Of a DNA stretch of 64,000 nucleotides, positions 20,682 through 29,365 are shown one piece after another (within the stretch, counting starts at the first letter, position 1; the number at the start of each line of letters is the position of its first letter). The stretch covers positions 1 to 64,000 of the forward strand of contig CALFFK010000009.1 in NCBI GenBank assembly GCA_937957975.1, given 5' to 3'. The notes below the pieces were generated by a model. It was not told the DNA's origin. It saw nothing but the letters and a program-made list of their open reading frames with translations, and searched no databases. The DNA comes from an uncultured Neomegalonema sp. Lineage in GTDB: Bacteria; Pseudomonadota; Alphaproteobacteria; Rhodobacterales; Rhodobacteraceae. Made by a program: the position numbers and the translations under genes.

Positions 20682-23444
20682 TTATTCGTCGATCTTGACC
20701 GTGAAGGTCATAATGCCCTGCCCGCCGGGAACGAGCGTCCCGTAGGTGCCGGTCAGCGTTCCGGTGCCGTTGTTCGCAAAGCCACTGAGCGTTCCGGTCG
20801 AAACCGTGGCTGCACAGGTGCCGCCGCAGTTTGTCATGGTCGTCCAGGCTGGCGTGGCATCGGTGACGACCACGTCGTCAGCATTTGCCGTACCGCTGTT
20901 GAGCGCGGTGATGCGATACGTGATGCACTGACCGGGGATCGCGTTGACTGTGCCGGAGGTGAAGGCGGTCGTGCCTGCGCCGGTGGTACAGTCGGTCAGA
21001 CGTTGCTGTTTGGCCAGTGAGACATCGCCCGAAGCAATTGTTACAGTATCGGTGACGCTGTTGTTGCTGGCATTGGTGTCCGTCGCAGGCCCGCTTGGCG
21101 TCGTAAGGGCTGTGGCAACTTCAACGATCTGGCTTTCCACCAGACCAACTGTGGCCGTGGAGGGAACCTGAACGCGCAGGATGATGTCGGCTGAACCAAG
21201 TGCCGGGATGCCGGTAACGCCGCCGATGACGATGTCATCAATGTTGTCGATAACAACATCGCTGCTATCCGCCACGCCGTTGCCGTTGACGTCATGGAAC
21301 AATGTACCGGAGAAGGTGCTGAAGCCTCCGGGTAGCAGGTTCAGCGCACCTGCGGTGATCGCTGAGTTACCGTCGTTGGAGATCGTGTGCGGGATGTCGA
21401 GAATACCCGATGGTGCCGCCTGACGATTCTGGTTCGATGAGATGCGAAGATCGACAATACTGTTCACCGATATGGCGTTCAGCACTGTGTCGCCCTGACC
21501 TGTCGAAGCAGAGGTTATGCTTGTAACGAAGTCAGTCGTCACCGGCGGTGCGCCCGCAGGGGGTGTAATCGTCGCAATGACATCGACACTCTGGCCAGCG
21601 GGGATGTTGCCGGTATTCGTGATTGGCGTCCCGTTGAGCGTGAACTCTACCATATATCCTGTTGGCAGACCCGTGATGGCCAGATCGTAGTTGTTCGAGG
21701 TTGCGCCATTATTGGCGATATCGAACATGAATTCGACCGGGGTGCCAGGATCGGTTGCCTGAATGTCGAAGGGAGCACCGGCATTCGACTGATCTGCGGG
21801 TTGTGTCCCAAAACCATCGTTGTCCGCCGAGACGCCGAGCGTACCGTTCTCGTTACTGATGTCCACCTGCGCGGCATCAATCGTACCGGCGAAGCGCGTT
21901 GTGGCCGTGTTGGGCGTACCGCCACCGCTGGCAACTGCCGAAACGATAGCGTTGAAGCCGTTGGCGGGTACTGCGGTTGTGGCGACCGGCAGCGTTGCGA
22001 ACAACGTTACGGTCGTCGTACCGCCAACTGCGACAGGGCCAATCGGGCCTGCAACCGGGGTGATACCATCGGGGCCGACGAGCTGGAATGATGTTCCGAG
22101 GGGGAAGCCGTCCGTCACAGCATTCGCAAAGCTGACCTCAATATTCTGCACCGAGTTGGAGTTGTTCGTCAGAATAACTTCCATCGGGATCGTCGCGCCC
22201 TGGCTTACGACATCCGTAACTTCGACGACATCGTTCGCGACGGCATCATCGTCGGATGCGGAGATGACGTTTGGTGCGGTCGTGTCCAGGTTTGCGGCTG
22301 TGTCGGGATCGACGACATAAGTGGCTGCGCTGTAGTCCGCAGCAGTGATGCGATAGAAATCATCGATTGTAACTCGTGCCGTGTTTGAGTTGGAGCCGGG
22401 AACAGGGGTTGCGCCCACAGTCTGGGTGACGACGTTTTCGATGTCACCGGCAGGAACCGGGTTAACCGTATCGATGACTGCATCGAAGGTGACAAAGCCG
22501 GTACGGCCCTGTGGCACCAGATCAATCTGGAAAGCAACAGTGCTCGACGCTGCATCATAGCTGAATTCGATGCCATGACCGGAGCCGTTGATCTGCTCGA
22601 AGGTCGTCAAGGCCGGATTGGTTGCGTCGCCTGTATCGGTCAGGGCGTCCGGGTCGTCGGACCATCTGCCCGATCCGGGAACGTAGACAAGACGTGGGTC
22701 GAGAAGGTCACTGACGATCAGCTTGTCTGCGTCGGTCAGACCGGTGCTGGAATAGGTCAACGTGATTGTCACGACATCGCCTGGTCCGGTAAGGCCGTCG
22801 GCAGGCTGGCCGCCGACTGCGGTATCGGTGACGGTCATTTCCTTTAGAATATCGACGATTGGGGCGCTCGACACCGTGATAACATCGTCATTCGTCTGGG
22901 TTACAGTTGGGTCGAATGCACTGGTCGCGGTGACAGTAACCGTGTCGTTCTGACCCGCAGCGGCACTGGCCGGTACTACCGCCTCAATGACGATTCCGAA
23001 ACTGTCGCCAGCGTTGAGGAGCGGTGTTGTCGTGATTGGAGTCGTGTTGTCAGCGACACCATCACCATCCGCATCGGCAAAGATCTTGATGCTCGCCGGA
23101 TCGATCGTGAATGTACCCGCTGTGAGCGAATCTGCGGTGATCCCATAGCTGTCAGGTCCGTTACCATTGTTGGTGATGGTATGTGGAAGGAAGACCTTGC
23201 CGCCCGGTGCGCCCGTTCTGTCGGTCGGAGTGGCCAGGGTCAGCGCGGCGATCTGCTGAACGATGGTCTCGACCCTGTTCGAGGTAACGCGAACGGTATC
23301 ACCCGACGCATTGGTGTAGGTTGCGGTTGCCTGGTTCCCAATCCGCTCACCTGCGGGCGGTGCAGCGGCAAAGGCGGCTGCGCCTGCAAATGATGCAGCG
23401 GTAACAAGAAGGCCAAAACGTTTGGACCGGCGAATGGCTGTCAT
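20682..23444 (-). CDS. DUF11 repeat-containing exported protein
   Basis: A 920-residue protein with a signal peptide (RFGLLVTAASFAGAAAFA). It begins with the same module as its giant neighbour (APPAGERIGNQATATY versus APTAGTVISNQASATY). The rest is a string of beta-sandwich repeats with Asn/Thr/Val-rich strands and calcium-type loops (FADADGDGVADNTTP, FHDVNGNGVADSSD). The last about 110 residues form a DUF11 domain (CITYRITALNSGTANADDVV) with paired cysteines. It has no barrel and no sorting motif, so it is secreted or bound by a partner such as the giant barrel protein. It sits between the small exported protein and the giant, all on the minus strand. Confidence 0.85.
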   Translation of the reverse strand: MTAIRRSKRFGLLVTAASFAGAAAFAAAPPAGERIGNQATATYTNASGDTVRVTSNRVETIVQQIAALTLATPTDRTGAPGGKVFLPHTITNNGNGPDSYGITADSLTAGTFTIDPASIKIFADADGDGVADNTTPITTTPLLNAGDSFGIVIEAVVPASAAAGQNDTVTVTATSAFDPTVTQTNDDVITVSSAPIVDILKEMTVTDTAVGGQPADGLTGPGDVVTITLTYSSTGLTDADKLIVSDLLDPRLVYVPGSGRWSDDPDALTDTGDATNPALTTFEQINGSGHGIEFSYDAASSTVAFQIDLVPQGRTGFVTFDAVIDTVNPVPAGDIENVVTQTVGATPVPGSNSNTARVTIDDFYRITAADYSAATYVVDPDTAANLDTTAPNVISASDDDAVANDVVEVTDVVSQGATIPMEVILTNNSNSVQNIEVSFANAVTDGFPLGTSFQLVGPDGITPVAGPIGPVAVGGTTTVTLFATLPVATTAVPANGFNAIVSAVASGGGTPNTATTRFAGTIDAAQVDISNENGTLGVSADNDGFGTQPADQSNAGAPFDIQATDPGTPVEFMFDIANNGATSNNYDLAITGLPTGYMVEFTLNGTPITNTGNIPAGQSVDVIATITPPAGAPPVTTDFVTSITSASTGQGDTVLNAISVNSIVDLRISSNQNRQAAPSGILDIPHTISNDGNSAITAGALNLLPGGFSTFSGTLFHDVNGNGVADSSDVVIDNIDDIVIGGVTGIPALGSADIILRVQVPSTATVGLVESQIVEVATALTTPSGPATDTNASNNSVTDTVTIASGDVSLAKQQRLTDCTTGAGTTAFTSGTVNAIPGQCITYRITALNSGTANADDVVVTDATPAWTTMTNCGGTCAATVSTGTLSGFANNGTGTLTGTYGTLVPGGQGIMTFTVKIDE

Positions 23445-23557
23445 CAGATAGCTCCTCTGGGTAGATGAGGGCGGTCAAGCGTCCTGTAGAGCACCCGTGA
23501 GAGTGCCCTTGGCATGGGAGCGTCTTCACCGTTTTTGAGGTGGATATTGGGGGGGAT

Positions 23558-24061
23558 TTACTTGACGCGAACGCGATATGTGTTCGTGACCTGCTCATGG
23601 GTCTGGAGCGGATTCGAGAGCGTCCACCGGATCGCGGTGAAATGTTCGGGGCGTGCATTCTCGATCATGCGGGAGCCATCATCAAGCACGACGATCCGTT
23701 GTGCAGGAAGGGTTGACCATTCTTCACCGGGGCGATCGGGGTCGAGTTCACCGCGCACTTCGAGGATGGCGGGAGATGATGTTGCCAGGGTCGCAGGATC
23801 GACCACGGCCTGTTCGGGAACCGGCCCCACAATGGCAACGCCGCCGATGGCGTTGTTGAATGTGTTGCGATGGCGAATGCGGTATTCGATGAGCTGGCCG
23901 GGTTCGACGGTTACGGCATTCGCGTATTGTTCCGTGCCGTCTGCCGCCACCGTGATGACATGGGCGCTCATCTGACTCTTTAACTCAGCGAAAGCGAGGG
24001 TAGGAATGAGGACTGACAGCGTCGCAATGACGCTCGCGGTGGTTCTGATCGCAGGATACAT
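23558..24061 (-). CDS. Small exported single-domain DUF11-like protein
   Basis: A 167-residue product with a signal peptide (MYPAIRTTASVIATLSVLIPTLAFA). The mature part is one beta-rich domain (VEPGQLIEYRIRHRNTFNN, VVIVGPVPEQ-like strand, RPEHFTAIRWTLSNPLQ) resembling a DUF11 unit without repeats. It is the first gene of the surface-protein cluster, directly after the AT-rich gap. GGAGAGAG precedes two consecutive ATGs (24064 and 24061); the second has better spacing. A GTG further upstream is unlikely. It could be a chaperone or subunit for the two large proteins; nothing proves this. Confidence 0.75.
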   Translation of the reverse strand: MYPAIRTTASVIATLSVLIPTLAFAELKSQMSAHVITVAADGTEQYANAVTVEPGQLIEYRIRHRNTFNNAIGGVAIVGPVPEQAVVDPATLATSSPAILEVRGELDPDRPGEEWSTLPAQRIVVLDDGSRMIENARPEHFTAIRWTLSNPLQTHEQVTNTYRVRVK

Positions 24062-24411
24062 CATCTCTCTCCACAAGAGTTCCGACACCGCGTTCTGCGG
24101 GTCATCTTGGAAGGGATTATCCTGTAAGAAAATTACCAGATCATATCTAAAACTAGAATAACTGTGATTAAGTTGTTTATATTAATTAATTTATTTAAAG
24201 TAAGTGTAAAATACTATAATTAAATACTAGTCTATAAACTTACATAAAAATTGAATTAAAGGATATTTAATTGGTTTATTTTTTATTAAAATTAGTATTT
24301 AGTATTTTTTACTGTAAGTACAAATATTTTTATTTTTATAATTTGATTATTTATTTGTAATTCATGTATATAAAAGTCAACATAATCTGCGATGCAACCG
24401 AAGGTTTCAAA
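24062..24411. other. Gene-free, extremely AT-rich region upstream of the surface-protein cluster
   Basis: From about 24115 to 24400 the sequence is almost only A and T (for example TTAATTAATTTATTTAAAG), in sharp contrast to the GC-rich surroundings. There is no ORF and no clear direct or inverted repeat. It lies between the end of the alpha/beta-hydrolase gene and the start of the surface cluster, both on the minus strand, so it holds the cluster's promoter. It could be a site for an H-NS-like or MucR/Ros-type silencer, or the scar of an acquired segment. Confidence 0.7.
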
Positions 24412-25191
24412 TCAAGATTGAAGGATGAAGCCCTGTATGTGCTTTGATAGTTGATGTGGTTGCTCTACGCAGGGAATATGTCCGCAGTTATTTAACTCTA
24501 CGTACTGCGCGTTAGGTAAAAGTGACGCGAAATTTTGCATCAGGGCTGGTGGCGTTGACCCGTCATCTGCACCGCATACACAAAGTGCATTCACGTTTAT
24601 CGACACGCAGTCTGCAGTGAAGTCCGCATCCCGGATGGCCCGGCCCAGATCGCAGTATCCTGCGACAGGCGTGCGGACCAGCATCGACCGCCAGATTGGA
24701 AAGGTTGTTGCCTTATCCCGGAATTCAGGCGTGAACCACCGCTCCAGCGTTGCGTCGGCGACCGCTTCCATGCCCATGCGTTCGATCAGGGCGATTCGTT
24801 CGTTCCAGATGGCGTCAGTGCCGATCTTGTGCGCTGTATCGCAGAACACGACACGCGCCACGCGCTGTGGCGATGCCTTGATAAGCGCCTGTGCAATCAG
24901 GCCGCCAACGCTGAGGCCGATGAGTGTCGCACGCCCTATCCCCACATGATCCATGAGGGCGAGCAGATCATTCGCATGATCCTCAATAGAGCGTTCACCC
25001 CCCAAATCACTCAGGCCATGCCCCGCCGTGTCGTAGCGCAGCACCCGAAAGTCCGGCGACATATGATCAAGCATGGGTTCCCATATGCGGAAATCGGTGC
25101 CGAGCGAGTTGGAGAAGACCAAGGCCTCTCCATCGCGCGGGCCGCTGTCGCGGTAATGCAGGGCGCGGGTTCCGATCCGAAAGACATCCAT
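24412..25191 (-). CDS. Alpha/beta hydrolase, 3-oxoadipate enol-lactonase-like
   Basis: A 259-residue alpha/beta hydrolase. The nucleophile elbow is LIGLSVGGLIAQ (Ser about 96), the oxyanion region is SLGTDFRIWEPM, the catalytic Asp is probably in CVCGADDGSTPP (about 206) and the His in NNCGHIPCVEQP (about 235). SLGTDFRIWEPML with RYDTAGHGLS is characteristic of PcaD. No other protocatechuate genes are in the window, and the upstream neighbour is the carnitine enzyme, so the true substrate may differ. The start at 25191 is chosen because AGGAGG lies 8 bases upstream. Confidence 0.82.
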   Translation of the reverse strand: MDVFRIGTRALHYRDSGPRDGEALVFSNSLGTDFRIWEPMLDHMSPDFRVLRYDTAGHGLSDLGGERSIEDHANDLLALMDHVGIGRATLIGLSVGGLIAQALIKASPQRVARVVFCDTAHKIGTDAIWNERIALIERMGMEAVADATLERWFTPEFRDKATTFPIWRSMLVRTPVAGYCDLGRAIRDADFTADCVSINVNALCVCGADDGSTPPALMQNFASLLPNAQYVELNNCGHIPCVEQPHQLSKHIQGFILQS

Positions 25192-25298: not shown

Positions 25299-26774
25299 TC
25301 AGATCGCCCGGATCGCCCGCCCCGCAAAATCAGGCGCATCCAGTGACGCATGGCCCGCCCCGACCAGTGCCAGCCGCTCTGTCACCGGCGCGGCGAGCGG
25401 ACAGGCGCAGCTTTCCGCCGTATTCACGCTCAACAGCATATGCTCGGCGGTGGCCAGCACCTCGTCGCTTTCCCCTTCGCGCATGATATGAGCGATGCGG
25501 ATGCGTTTTTCATCATGGCCGAGTAGCTGTGTGGTCACGGCAAGGGGGCGACCCTCGCGCACTTCTGCCACATGCCGCAGATGCGTCTCGACAGTATAAA
25601 TTGAACGCCCTTCCGCCATGTAGGCCGCATCCATCCCCAGATATGTCAGGAAGGCATCCGTCGCATCGCCAAAGACATGCAGGTAACGGAACTCTGTCAT
25701 ATGCCCGTTGTAATCCACCCAGTCGGGCAGCACTGTTGCGGAATGCAGGGGTAACGGCGCGGATAGATCATGCTCCGCCTCTGCCCCCGCAAACGACAAT
25801 TCGCGCAATCGTTTTTCATGGTTTGCGACGGTTGCCCCCGCTCCCCACGGTTTCGCTTTCAGTGCCTGTAGGATACCTACAAGGTTGTCGTCGCGAATGC
25901 GCTCCAGTTCCCGGATCGAATGCATCCCTGATTGCTCATCCGATTGCCCCGCGATCAGATCGACCAGTTCATCCGTGAAGTCCGGCACATCCATCAGTTT
26001 GGTCCATGGCCATTTCAGCGCGGGGCCAAACTGTGCCATGAAATGCCGCATCCCGGCTTCGCCCCCGGCCACGCGATATGTTTCGAACAACCCCATTTGC
26101 GCCCAGCGCAGACCAAACCCAAAGCGGATCGCATCGTCGATCTCTTCGGTTGTTGCCACGCCATCCTTCACCAGCCACAGCGCCTCGCGCCATACCGCCT
26201 CAAGAAAACGATCCGCGATATGCGCGTCGATCTCCTGCCGCACAACCAGCGGATGCATCCCCACCTGCGTCAGCAGGGTTTTCGCCCACTCCACCGCGCG
26301 CGGATCACCCGCTGGTCCCGCCACAATCTCGGCCAAGGGCAGCAGATAGACAGGGTTGAACGGGTGCGCGACGAGGATTTGGCCGGGGTCTTTTGATCCC
26401 TGCTGCAACTCTGACGGTTTAAAGCCGGAGGTTGATGACCCGATCACCGCTTCGGGGTGCAGCGTTTCCTGTATCTCTGCATAGACCCGGTGTTTCAGGT
26501 CCAGCCGCTCCGACACGCTTTCCTGTACCCAGCCAACCCCAGTCACCGCATCCGCGATACTCTCCGCAAACCGGATTGTGCCGGGGGAGGGCAGGGGAGC
26601 GACGTAAAGCCGCCGCGTCGCGGCCTCCGCATTCGCGTAGACCTCGCCTACCTTGCGCGGAGCCTCCGGGTCCGGGTCGAACACCGCCACGTCATGCCCG
26701 GCCAACGCAAACCGCGCCGCCCAGCCTCCACCGATGACCCCCCCACCGATGATCGCGATTTTTGTATCAGGCAT
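25299..26774 (-). CDS. lcdH: L-carnitine dehydrogenase fused to a hotdog thioesterase
   Basis: A 491-residue two-domain enzyme. Residues 1-320 form a 3-hydroxyacyl-CoA-dehydrogenase-type NAD enzyme (AIIGGGVIGGGWAARFALAG; GSSTSGFKPSELQ; VAHPFNPVYLLPLAEIV with the catalytic His). Residues about 350-480 form a 4-hydroxybenzoyl-CoA thioesterase-like hotdog (LPDWVDYNGHMTEFRYLHVF). This fusion is known from alphaproteobacterial carnitine catabolism: carnitine is oxidised to 3-dehydrocarnitine, and after the BKACE cleavage step betainyl-CoA is hydrolysed to glycine betaine. The BKACE (DUF849) gene is not in the window. The start at 26774 has a GGGAAG upstream. Confidence 0.88.
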   Translation of the reverse strand: MPDTKIAIIGGGVIGGGWAARFALAGHDVAVFDPDPEAPRKVGEVYANAEAATRRLYVAPLPSPGTIRFAESIADAVTGVGWVQESVSERLDLKHRVYAEIQETLHPEAVIGSSTSGFKPSELQQGSKDPGQILVAHPFNPVYLLPLAEIVAGPAGDPRAVEWAKTLLTQVGMHPLVVRQEIDAHIADRFLEAVWREALWLVKDGVATTEEIDDAIRFGFGLRWAQMGLFETYRVAGGEAGMRHFMAQFGPALKWPWTKLMDVPDFTDELVDLIAGQSDEQSGMHSIRELERIRDDNLVGILQALKAKPWGAGATVANHEKRLRELSFAGAEAEHDLSAPLPLHSATVLPDWVDYNGHMTEFRYLHVFGDATDAFLTYLGMDAAYMAEGRSIYTVETHLRHVAEVREGRPLAVTTQLLGHDEKRIRIAHIMREGESDEVLATAEHMLLSVNTAESCACPLAAPVTERLALVGAGHASLDAPDFAGRAIRAI

Positions 26775-26927
26775 GATGCCACTTCCCTGCACTGGTTCTT
26801 TCGTTCGTTGTGCAGCATCACTACGACAGAACGCAGTTTGCAATGGTTTCGGGTAAATTCTGTGGAGCGATAAGCTCGACATGTAACTTCAGATTGTGCA
26901 GTCTCACCACGCAACGGAGAGTTGATC

Positions 26928-28322
26928 ATGTCTGAGCTACCGGATTTCATTGTAAGCGGGGAACCTGTCCGCCTGTTTTCTGTCCTTTCGGATACATCGA
27001 AGGAAGGTCGGACGACCTCTGTATTCCTTTCTTGCCTTGCGAATGTATTCGAATATGGAACGGCCCTTTTGTCATCTCTTGGGCAACGTGTAGGTACACG
27101 AGCGCGCATTGAATGTTTCACCGAAGTCGGATTCGCAACGAAAGCAGGGGATAAAAAATTAAGACCCGATGGGCTGATCGTGTTGACTGTTGGGTCGAGA
27201 AAATGGACTGCACTTATTGAAGCAAAAGTGGGTAATAACGAACTTACGAACGAGCAAATTGAAGAATATTTGGCGCTGGCACAGGCACAAAAAATCGATG
27301 CCGTAATTTCGATTTCAAACCAGTTTTCTGCATCACCACACCACCATCCGCTTCAATTCAAATCCCGTTTGACCAATAAGGTTGATCTCTATCATTGGTC
27401 ATGGATGTACTTATTGACCGAAGCAGATCTTCTGCTGTCGAATTCACAAATCGAGGATGCTGACCAACACTACATACTCCGTGAACTTGTGCGTTTTCTT
27501 ACGCATCCGAGTGCTGGGGTTAAAGGGTTCGATGCTATGCCAAAGGCATGGGGCGATATGGTTAATTCGGTTCGGGCTGGTGCGCCCATACGGGCTAATT
27601 CGCCAGAGGCTGAAGAAGTGATTGGTGCTTGGCATCAGGAGGTCCGTGATCTTAGTCTTATCCTTAGTAGGCAGGTCGGGGTTGAGGTTAGCAACAGGTT
27701 GCCGCGCGCATTGGTCAAAGACAATGCCGCAAGGGTCAAGGCCGACCTCAGCGCGTTGGCAGATGAAAAATGCATGACTGCATCTCTTTTCGTGCCAGAT
27801 ACCGCTGCACCTATCGACATCAATGTTGATATGACCAATCGCACGATTAGTAGTTCGGCACGGATAAAGGCGCCAGCCGATAAGCACAGTACGAAGGCGC
27901 GGATAAATTGGGTTTTGCGGCAGCTCCAGAAAACCCCTTCAGACAACATCTATCTCCGTCTTCACTGGCCAGGGCGCGGACCTTACACCCAACATACTTT
28001 GGCTGAACTGCGAGATGATGTGACGATTGCCGAAGTAGGGAAAGACAAGCAGGTAAGCACGATTGAGGTCTGCATGGTTCGCGAAACCGGCGCGCGGTTT
28101 GCCCAATCCCGAAACTTCATCAAAGATCTCGAAGAGGCTGTTCCTGACTTTTATGAAACGGTGATGCAATACTTGAAGGTTTGGCAACCACCTGCGCCAA
28201 AATTACGTGAAGGCCGGACAGACGCATCTGATGTAACGCCAAAGGCAATCAGCGAGGAAGTAAACGATCCTATGCGGGCCGGATCATCTCCACAAAACAG
28301 CACGTTTGATCGCGAGCAGTAA
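26928..28322 (+). CDS. Putative PD-(D/E)XK nuclease, stand-alone
   Basis: A 464-residue protein I cannot place in a named family. Residues about 70-135 hold a PD-(D/E)XK pattern: KKLRPDGLIVLTVGSRKWTA, then LIEAKVGNNELTNEQIEEYL, giving D, E and K plus the following Gln-rich helix. The remaining 330 residues are mixed alpha/beta without a recognised domain and end in a polar tail. Base composition is poorer in G+C than that of both neighbours, which are metabolic genes. The start at 26928 has GGAGAG upstream; a TTG two codons earlier is unlikely. A restriction-like or anti-phage nuclease is the leading idea (inference); no methylase or partner gene is adjacent. Confidence 0.6.
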   Translation: MSELPDFIVSGEPVRLFSVLSDTSKEGRTTSVFLSCLANVFEYGTALLSSLGQRVGTRARIECFTEVGFATKAGDKKLRPDGLIVLTVGSRKWTALIEAKVGNNELTNEQIEEYLALAQAQKIDAVISISNQFSASPHHHPLQFKSRLTNKVDLYHWSWMYLLTEADLLLSNSQIEDADQHYILRELVRFLTHPSAGVKGFDAMPKAWGDMVNSVRAGAPIRANSPEAEEVIGAWHQEVRDLSLILSRQVGVEVSNRLPRALVKDNAARVKADLSALADEKCMTASLFVPDTAAPIDINVDMTNRTISSSARIKAPADKHSTKARINWVLRQLQKTPSDNIYLRLHWPGRGPYTQHTLAELRDDVTIAEVGKDKQVSTIEVCMVRETGARFAQSRNFIKDLEEAVPDFYETVMQYLKVWQPPAPKLREGRTDASDVTPKAISEEVNDPMRAGSSPQNSTFDREQ

Positions 28323-28405
28323 TTTGATGGGCTGATCCCACCTTCTTGAATGGTATAGTTCCTCCTTTTAGATACCGTCTGAGCGATGCTGAGGAAGGTG
28401 TGCCC

Positions 28406-29365
28406 ATGTCCAGCCCATCCCTGCCGAACGAATACGCCGTTGAGCTGATCCCGCCGGATATTTCCGCTTATGCGGCGGGCAATACCGGCATTCCGTATAT
28501 CTGGCGCTTTGAGGCGAGCGAACCCGGCCCTCATGCCATGGTTTCCGCCATCGTTCATGGCAATGAACCGGCGGGGGCGATTGCGCTGGACTGGTTGATG
28601 CAGCGGGATTTTCGCCCTGCGCGGGGGACGCTCACGCTGGCCTTTATGAATATCGCTGCCTATGAGGCCTTCGATCCGGCGGACCCCAATGCGACCCGCT
28701 GGGTGGATGAGGATTTCAACCGTGTCTGGGGCAGGGATGTACTGGATAGCGACCGTGACAGTGTGGAACTGCGCCGTGCCCGCGAAGTGCAGCCCGCCGT
28801 GGCCGCCGCCGATACCCTGCTCGATATTCACACCATGCAGCATCTCGCCCCGCCTGTGATGATTGCCGGGACAAAAGCGAAAGGTGTGGCCCTCGCCCGC
28901 AAGATAGGCGTTCCCCGCATTGTTATCTCTGATGCGGGCCATGCGGCGGGTGTGAGAATGCGTGACCATGGTGCTTTTGACGATGCCGCCTCGGAGGCCA
29001 GCGCCTGTCTTATCGAATGTGGTCAGCACTGGGAGGCCGCTGCCGGTATCCTCGCCAGGGAGTCCACTGCGCGCTTTTTGTGGGCGTTGGGCATGGCCGA
29101 TGAAAGCCTGATCGCTGAGGCGGGGGGTACGGAGCCGAAAGAACAGGTCTTTTTCGATGTAACCGAAGCCGTGACCATCGAGCATGACTTTACTTTCGCG
29201 CAGCCCTTCATGGGCGGCGAAATCATCGAAATCGCCGGAACCCTGCTCGGCCATGATGGCGGTCGGGAAATCGTTACTCCCTATGACGAATGTATGCTCG
29301 TCATGCCCTCCAAGCGCCTCTGGCCCGGCCAGACGGCAGTGCGCCTCGCCCGCCGGGTCGGATGA
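28406..29365 (+). CDS. Succinylglutamate desuccinylase/aspartoacylase family zinc hydrolase
   Basis: A 319-residue M14-like deacylase. Zinc ligands are visible in AIVHGNEPAGAIAL (His and Glu, about 53-56) and LLDIHTMQHL (His, about 143). The Asn-Arg substrate motif is in DEDFNRVWG (about 104), and the catalytic Glu is probably in CLIECGQHW (about 203). The C-terminal beta domain is present (GEIIEIAGTLLG). Members release acyl groups from N-acyl amino acids; AstE itself is a little different, so only the family is called. The start at 28406 has GAGGAAGG upstream. It is convergent with the YgjP-like gene (3-bp gap). Confidence 0.85.
   Translation: MSSPSLPNEYAVELIPPDISAYAAGNTGIPYIWRFEASEPGPHAMVSAIVHGNEPAGAIALDWLMQRDFRPARGTLTLAFMNIAAYEAFDPADPNATRWVDEDFNRVWGRDVLDSDRDSVELRRAREVQPAVAAADTLLDIHTMQHLAPPVMIAGTKAKGVALARKIGVPRIVISDAGHAAGVRMRDHGAFDDAASEASACLIECGQHWEAAAGILARESTARFLWALGMADESLIAEAGGTEPKEQVFFDVTEAVTIEHDFTFAQPFMGGEIIEIAGTLLGHDGGREIVTPYDECMLVMPSKRLWPGQTAVRLARRVG

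Follow-up and report, generated by a model that had tools for sequence, protein, structure and literature searches.

The window analysed in this work is a stretch of 64,000 nucleotides from an uncultured Neomegalonema sp., in which a solitary gene had been annotated as a PD-(D/E)XK protein that could form a single-gene defence system. What kind of protein does this gene encode, and is defence its function? On the plus strand, positions 26928..28322 (ATG at 26928, stop codon at 28320-28322) encode a protein of 464 amino acids, and our analysis recovered the same ORF and the same length as the initial annotation. The ORF, its conservation and the structural models identify it as a real, conserved protein. 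The source genome (3.27 Mb, 125 contigs) contains one copy of the gene.

The protein and its predicted domains

No model in Pfam, PADLOC or NCBIfam matched the 464-amino-acid protein at an E-value of 1, which bears out its earlier description as a member of an unknown family. The single PHROGs match had an E-value of 0.42, and a sequence search of the PDB returned only two matches (E 0.69 and 1.2). Among relatives with a name, the closest is L016, at 90% identity, from an uncultured Neomegalonema MAG. We aligned 40 full-length relatives with identities down to 26% (alignment A3); this alignment omits the split or truncated copies (L019, L063, L064, L072, L073, L083, L084 and L085), L066, which was missed by the simple gene caller, L075, the G944 copy and 7 of the 11 plasmid relatives. 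Searching the PDB sequences with the A3 profile produced no match at E 10. Among the 40 relatives, Pfam detected VRR_NUC weakly in 11 (best E 0.015) and PDDEXK_4 weakly in 3 (best E 0.032), whereas the window protein itself matched neither at E 1. PADLOC matched 7 families in the same 40 relatives, with 1 to 3 members each and a best E-value of 0.0034 (one member, a candidate model); these matches were treated as chance, and nine relatives scanned singly gave none. In the literature searched, no paper was evidently on this nuclease family; a TerD-nuclease fusion is possibly in print, in a 2012 paper on Ter.

As the core of a nuclease, the initial annotation had singled out the motif RPDG...LIEAK and the polar helix after it. 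The motif corresponds to residues 79-82 and 96-100 and the helix to residues 108-120, within a predicted N-terminal PD-(D/E)XK nuclease domain (26928..27512, plus strand, residues 1-195, with a modelled core at about 25-193). The catalytic D...(D/E)xK of this superfamily is represented by a predicted metal-binding aspartate, D81 (codon at 27168..27170, plus strand), and by E98-A99-K100 as the predicted catalytic E-x-K (27219..27227, plus strand). The helix after the E-x-K strand carries Q110-x-x-x-Y114 (27255..27269, plus strand), which we take to resemble RecB-type motif III, though Pfam gave no match to a RecB/Cas4-like branch. Because D81, E98, K100, Q110 and Y114 are kept in 40 of 40 relatives down to 26% identity, the motif is not a chance occurrence. 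The other residues invariant in A3 are R15, W93, N131, H156, W159, G197 and W208, and both E66 and P80 are present in 39 of the 40 relatives.

The full-length AlphaFold2 model, built from six sequences (those of the window, L016, L017, L018, L094 and L095), was of modest quality (mean pLDDT 72.4, pTM 0.51; 60.3 to 50.0 in the other four models). By ten-residue block, pLDDT ranged from 58 to 89 over residues 31-190 and reached 88-89 in the blocks with D81 to K100. The modelled core consists of helices at residues 25-39 and 41-49, strands at 59-65, 82-88 and 91-99, a helix at 108-120 and a strand at 125-130, which is the alpha-beta-beta-beta-alpha-beta core of the PD-(D/E)XK superfamily. The initial annotation had reasoned that a model without this fold would speak against it; such a model was not what AlphaFold produced. 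When residues ~20-193 were compared with known structures by VIA-align, the top-ranked matches were largely restriction-type nucleases: after AF1548 (Z 8.9), whose title gives unknown function, came AspBHI (8.4), PaqCI (8.2), MspJI (7.7) and FokI (7.4), with Cap4, Avs4, VRR_NUC and Shedu in lower rows. Foldseek against the PDB gave only two matches with E-values up to 0.001, both EcoT38I chains (E 1.6e-4), with low whole-chain TM-scores (0.18-0.24) and with unrelated folds further down the list. The best match in a structure search of a viral library was named a PD-(D/E)XK nuclease (E 2.2e-5). On these models we are highly confident that the protein has a PD-(D/E)XK nuclease fold, and the conserved residues and the models together predict, with good confidence, that it cleaves DNA.

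The remainder of the protein had been described as having no other known domain. This description did not hold at the level of predicted structure, since residues ~200-421 (27525..28190, plus strand) model as a YbjN/type III secretion chaperone-like fold, though at E 1 no Pfam TY-chaperone model matched the 464-amino-acid protein or any of its 40 relatives. Modelled separately, residues 200-425 reached a pLDDT of 84.9 and a pTM of 0.82, and the predicted structure shows the helix, strand meander and helix of the TY-chaperone superfamily at Z values below 8. In VIA-align, 15 of the first 19 rows for this segment were YbjN-family proteins or type III secretion chaperones, led by YbjN (Z 7.6), AmyR (7.2) and Spa15 (7.0); the remaining 4 were three uncharacterised proteins and one regulator. 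Z values fell from 7.6 to 4.6 over these rows and then to 3.9 with unrelated folds, and all of them lie below 8, where VIA-align warns that a match may reflect a common arrangement; the fold assignment therefore depends on the uniformity of the list of matches. Foldseek returned no match for residues 200-425 at E 0.001. The low-confidence tail that follows (28194..28319, plus strand, residues 423-464, pLDDT under 50) is probably disordered. Altogether, the models make it probable that the protein belongs to an unnamed family that combines a PD-(D/E)XK nuclease domain with a YbjN/type III secretion chaperone-like domain.

Passages of PMC9503650 place TY-Chap domains in systems countering viral ADP-ribosylation and propose that they bind peptides, and a reference title in the same paper names YbjN-like DR1245 as a partner of DdrB. 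A literal secretion chaperone was ruled out by the nuclease fusion, and inspection of the listed neighbours by eye showed no secretion genes.

Occurrence, inheritance and genomic place

The gene is accessory. With its own genome counted, relatives occur in 3-7% of the sampled genomes: 13 of 198 at the family level, 22 of 385 at the class level and 12 of 398 at the phylum level. In the genus, 6 of 14 genomes carry the gene; these are 6 of the 8 that are at least 90% complete, so that some absences may be missing sequence. A search of 50,697 phage records found no match, and pattern-based scans of viral contigs yielded two loci only. The gene has a GC content of 49.4%, compared with 56.7% in the surrounding 16 kb, in agreement with the lower GC noted earlier. 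Of 39 loci compared, 34 have a lower GC in the gene than in its flanks (median -7.4 points). In a tree of 41 rows (the 40 of A3 plus L075), the viral-contig copy L094 pairs with the chromosomal copy L075 at a support of 100/100, one row of family f82 falls inside the f1 clade and the two rows of family f91 stand apart. These placements would fit horizontal transfer; a single 14-row clade that holds all 12 rows of the window's own family, f1, counts against it. Six pairs were used to estimate dN/dS, of which five had saturated dS. The window-L016 pair, with dS itself near saturation, gave dN 0.060, dS 1.83 and dN/dS 0.033 (0.059 for the neighbouring 3HCDH gene), and on this one pair the intact gene appears to be under purifying selection.

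Genes were called as longest ORFs, which includes some false antisense calls, also among the control ORFs of the repeat test described below, and neighbours without a Pfam match (guaA, IS3 and others) were named by eye. The window gene does lie between metabolic genes, as had been reported. It is head-to-head with a 3-hydroxyacyl-CoA dehydrogenase-thioesterase (3HCDH-4HBT) fusion (25299..26882, minus strand), which marks its site in the genus, and ahead of an AstE/AspA-like hydrolase (28346..29365, plus strand), which was not beside 3HCDH or the nuclease gene in the other genus stretches examined. The four nearest neighbours, two on each side, encode an alpha/beta hydrolase, 3HCDH-4HBT, AstE/AspA and YgjP, and no methylase is among them. 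Further upstream, two minus-strand genes (20682-24088) look secreted, with DUF11-type repeats by eye, and next to them 24089-24411 contains no ORF of 90 amino acids; the kilobase 24001-25000 has a GC content of 44.9%, well below the remainder of the window.

The nuclease gene adjoins 3HCDH in five genus genomes (G000, G940, G941, G949 and G054) and is absent beside it in six others (G942, G943, G946, G947, G950 and G951); a contig ends at the 3HCDH site in G945, and the only 3HCDH matches in G948 and in G944, itself a carrier of the gene, were distant. In G947, a lipocalin-like gene (by eye) comes directly after 3HCDH, and in G949 a copy of the nuclease gene, split over two frames, lies between those two. 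The flanks on both sides align between G947 and G949 (72.6% and 71.4%); therefore it is the nuclease gene alone that is present or absent, by gain or loss. Elsewhere in the family, three genomes have the gene amid common neighbours (L077, L078 and L084), and L054 and L093 have it beside the same genes, which shows that over some distance the gene is passed on without changing its place. Since related genomes share its place in this way, in the genus and in both of these groups, the gene is not hypermobile.

Clustering the neighbours of 48 loci revealed no conserved partner gene across distant relatives. The largest clusters were of common families (ABC ATPases at 8 loci, short-chain dehydrogenases at 5 and the genus 3HCDH at 5), and most of the smaller ones joined L077, L078 and L084 or other related pairs with shared places. 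At E 1e-8, the neighbourhoods of 63 sequences, some of them duplicates, included an ion channel twice, SIR2 once, a ParB-methylase three times and a second PD-type protein twice. By eye, most loci have housekeeping neighbours and are not in defence islands. The term stand-alone thus suits the window gene and not all of its relatives, among which are 4 TerD fusions, 2 genes that overlap ion-channel genes and 1 that adjoins SIR2.

Flanking repeats, mobile elements and TerD versions

Within 6-kb flanks, direct repeats bracket the gene at several loci: 192 and 125 bp at 99% in L088, 394 bp at 85% in L067, 208 bp at 88% in L068, 46 bp at 100% in L055 and 27 bp at 96% in L054, with weaker or more distant ones in L078, L089, L058, L061 and L023. 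The repeat of L067 and L068 corresponds to the 3' end of a gene that by eye resembles GMP synthase (guaA-like). Between this gene and the second copy of its 3' end lies a unit (L067:8248-10454 and L068:8730-10909) in which an ion-channel gene (Ion_trans in L067) and the nuclease gene overlap at their ends, with an additional 114-amino-acid ORF in L067; no integrase was seen by eye in the ORF lists of these units. In L055 the repeat is a terminator-like hairpin and the unit measures about 1.6 kb. An empty-site search for L055 and L088 found relatives that do not match up to the junction, so that the argument for insertion at these two loci comes from the repeats, and the L088 repeat is possibly an assembly fault because it touches a run of N. 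With 1.5-kb flanks, bracketing repeats were found at 4 of 41 loci and 3 of 188 control ORFs (Fisher p 0.021), an excess that is suggestive only, because the criterion was chosen with the results already in view and control ORFs lie on shared contigs. The window locus has no bracketing repeat, just imperfect 15-18-nt repeat families, none of which brackets the gene.

Some copies have phage-like or defence-type neighbours. The L057 copy adjoins a GTA/phage tail gene and the L094 copy is just ahead of an HNH-like gene (by eye), a terminase and a portal gene. A terminase gene is near the copies of L056 and L063 and a ParB-N6-methylase gene near those of L056, L063 and L095, the last of which has a serine recombinase and a terminase-like gene identified by eye only. 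The L069 copy adjoins a SIR2 defence-type gene (PADLOC E 1.1e-56; Pfam SIR2_2). Several copies are disrupted: in G123, IS3-like orfA/orfB are inserted at about residue 203 (L084:8932-10088), a 1.3-kb stretch of unassigned sequence interrupts the gene in G356, 60 codons are left in G736 and the G167 copy is broken or partial.

Two further observations were made at these loci. A ParB-N6-methylase fusion, a terminase gene (by eye only in L095) and a small gene between them form a recurring set (L095:1655-6524, with the serine recombinase; L056:2195-5593; L063:12110-15567) that looks like a mobile element. A second protein that looks PD-(D/E)XK-like by eye is encoded at two loci no more than about 6 kb from the nuclease gene: L056:6939-8171, where it has no Pfam match, and L069:15298-15969.

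Relatives with 28-33% identity were found in 11 of 72,556 plasmid records, 5 from Rhodococcus and 6 from Streptomyces. In the 4 actinobacterial relatives scanned with Pfam, each had a TerD domain at the N terminus, ahead of the nuclease and C-terminal unit. No TerD match was found in the 464-amino-acid protein or in the source genome, while the same genome search matched 2 of 14 control genomes. TerD is treated as a ligand-binding domain in passages of PMC7159879 and PMC7824862, and a TerD-dependent anti-phage system is mentioned in a passage of PMC3710099. ThiF, Mov34 and DUF6602 genes are near 2 of the 3 Rhodococcus copies read; on these plasmids (L020:10285-14136 and L141:1-2682), ThiF, Mov34/JAB and DUF6602 stand in a row, near the TerD-nuclease genes, that resembles a ubiquitin-like conjugation operon.

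Proposed defence role and alternative functions

Several known systems share parts of this architecture. The predicted nuclease-domain fold is like those of the modification-dependent and type II restriction endonucleases AspBHI, MspJI, PaqCI, FokI and EcoT38I (Z 8.4 to 7.1), from which the window protein differs in its second domain and in the lack of a PDB sequence match; the cognate methylase expected beside the nuclease in restriction-modification was not found among the four nearest neighbours at the window locus. PADLOC includes models of Shedu, none of which matched the 464-amino-acid protein or was among the 7 families matched by the 40 relatives. The single-gene defence nuclease Shedu (SduA) also has a PD-(D/E)XK domain (8ti9_B, Z 5.4) and is presented in a passage of PMC12904381 as a gated nuclease system, whereas in our protein the nuclease domain is N-terminal and its partner is chaperone-like; Shedu may thus serve as the nearest single-gene working analogy and not as the family. 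In the TY-chaperone superfamily (YbjN, CesT-type secretion chaperones and conflict-system TY-Chap), the modelled fold is alike, and what differs is its fusion to a nuclease. The link to Ter (TerD) systems of stress and anti-phage defence lies in Rhodococcus and Streptomyces, where the same unit stands behind TerD, unlike in the window protein and its genome.

Our preferred reading, held at somewhat better than even confidence, is that of a two-domain, metal-dependent PD-(D/E)XK DNA nuclease that is gained and lost as an accessory gene and that most likely serves as an innate anti-phage or anti-plasmid system; that the protein acts in defence at all we state with slightly more assurance. A single-gene defence system fits the patchy occurrence, the low GC, the one empty site, some flanking repeats and the carriage on plasmids and phage-like contigs. 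Against defence count the lack of a convincing PADLOC match in the 40 relatives, the location of most loci, by eye, outside defence islands and the place that the gene shares among related genomes. In such a system the nuclease would cut invading DNA, and the C-terminal chaperone-like domain would hold it quiet until a trigger is bound. Proteins with the chaperone-like fold are described as chaperones that bind peptides, so a phage protein would act as the trigger; in the actinobacterial versions, TerD would supply a further sensor. A methylase partner would be unneeded in the cell because activity would be gated and not marked on DNA. Gating of the nuclease by the chaperone-like domain is a tentative proposal, less secure than the defence role itself.

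A nuclease of DNA repair or the stress response, working in the manner of Ter-linked DNA processing and guarding against chemical or DNA damage instead of phages, would account for the TerD fusion in all 4 actinobacterial relatives scanned, for the partnership of YbjN-like DR1245 with DdrB named in that reference title of PMC9503650 and for a site common to related genomes. We consider it unlikely, because the genome itself has no TerD match, only 3-7% of the sampled genomes have the gene, an IS3-like element splits one copy, those of G167, G356 and G736 are broken or partial, and two copies are on viral contigs. That the gene is instead an accessory gene of phages (a moron) with a role in packaging or superinfection exclusion, and that its chromosomal copies are leftovers, is suggested by the L094 copy before HNH-like, terminase and portal genes, by the L057 copy beside a tail gene, and by the terminase gene near L056 and L063 together with the ParB-methylase gene that these share with L095. 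This explanation appears improbable given zero matches in the phage records, only 2 loci from the viral-contig scans and, at most loci, no phage genes by eye among three neighbours per side.

About equally improbable is a selfish, self-spreading nuclease gene of little use to its host, comparable to a homing endonuclease or a target-duplicating restriction gene. Restriction genes can insert with long target duplications, and the direct repeats that bracket the units of L055, L054, L088, L067 and L068, together with their excess over controls, point in this direction. However, in the 1.5-kb test 37 of the 41 loci had no bracketing repeat, nor does the window locus, the repeats lie at different genes, the units of L067 and L068 carry an ion-channel gene too, the repeat criterion was post hoc and the L088 repeat touches the N run. 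A bolder version of the defence reading would combine both ideas. The gene would then be a single-gene immune cassette of new architecture, its nuclease checked by a type III secretion chaperone-like domain that recognises a phage protein, either partly unfolded or one that binds single-stranded DNA (compare DR1245 and DdrB), and the nuclease would help the cassette to jump to the 3' ends of genes, duplicating 27 to about 400 bp; we regard this as a long shot.

If the preferred reading of a defence nuclease is true, the catalogue of defence systems would gain a nuclease family that is present in 3-7% of the sampled genomes and has no model in the libraries searched. A chaperone-like, peptide-binding fold would be coupled directly to a DNA nuclease, making one protein both sensor and effector. 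The insertion-like copies with duplicated gene 3' ends could help to explain the movement of solitary defence genes that have no integrase of their own.
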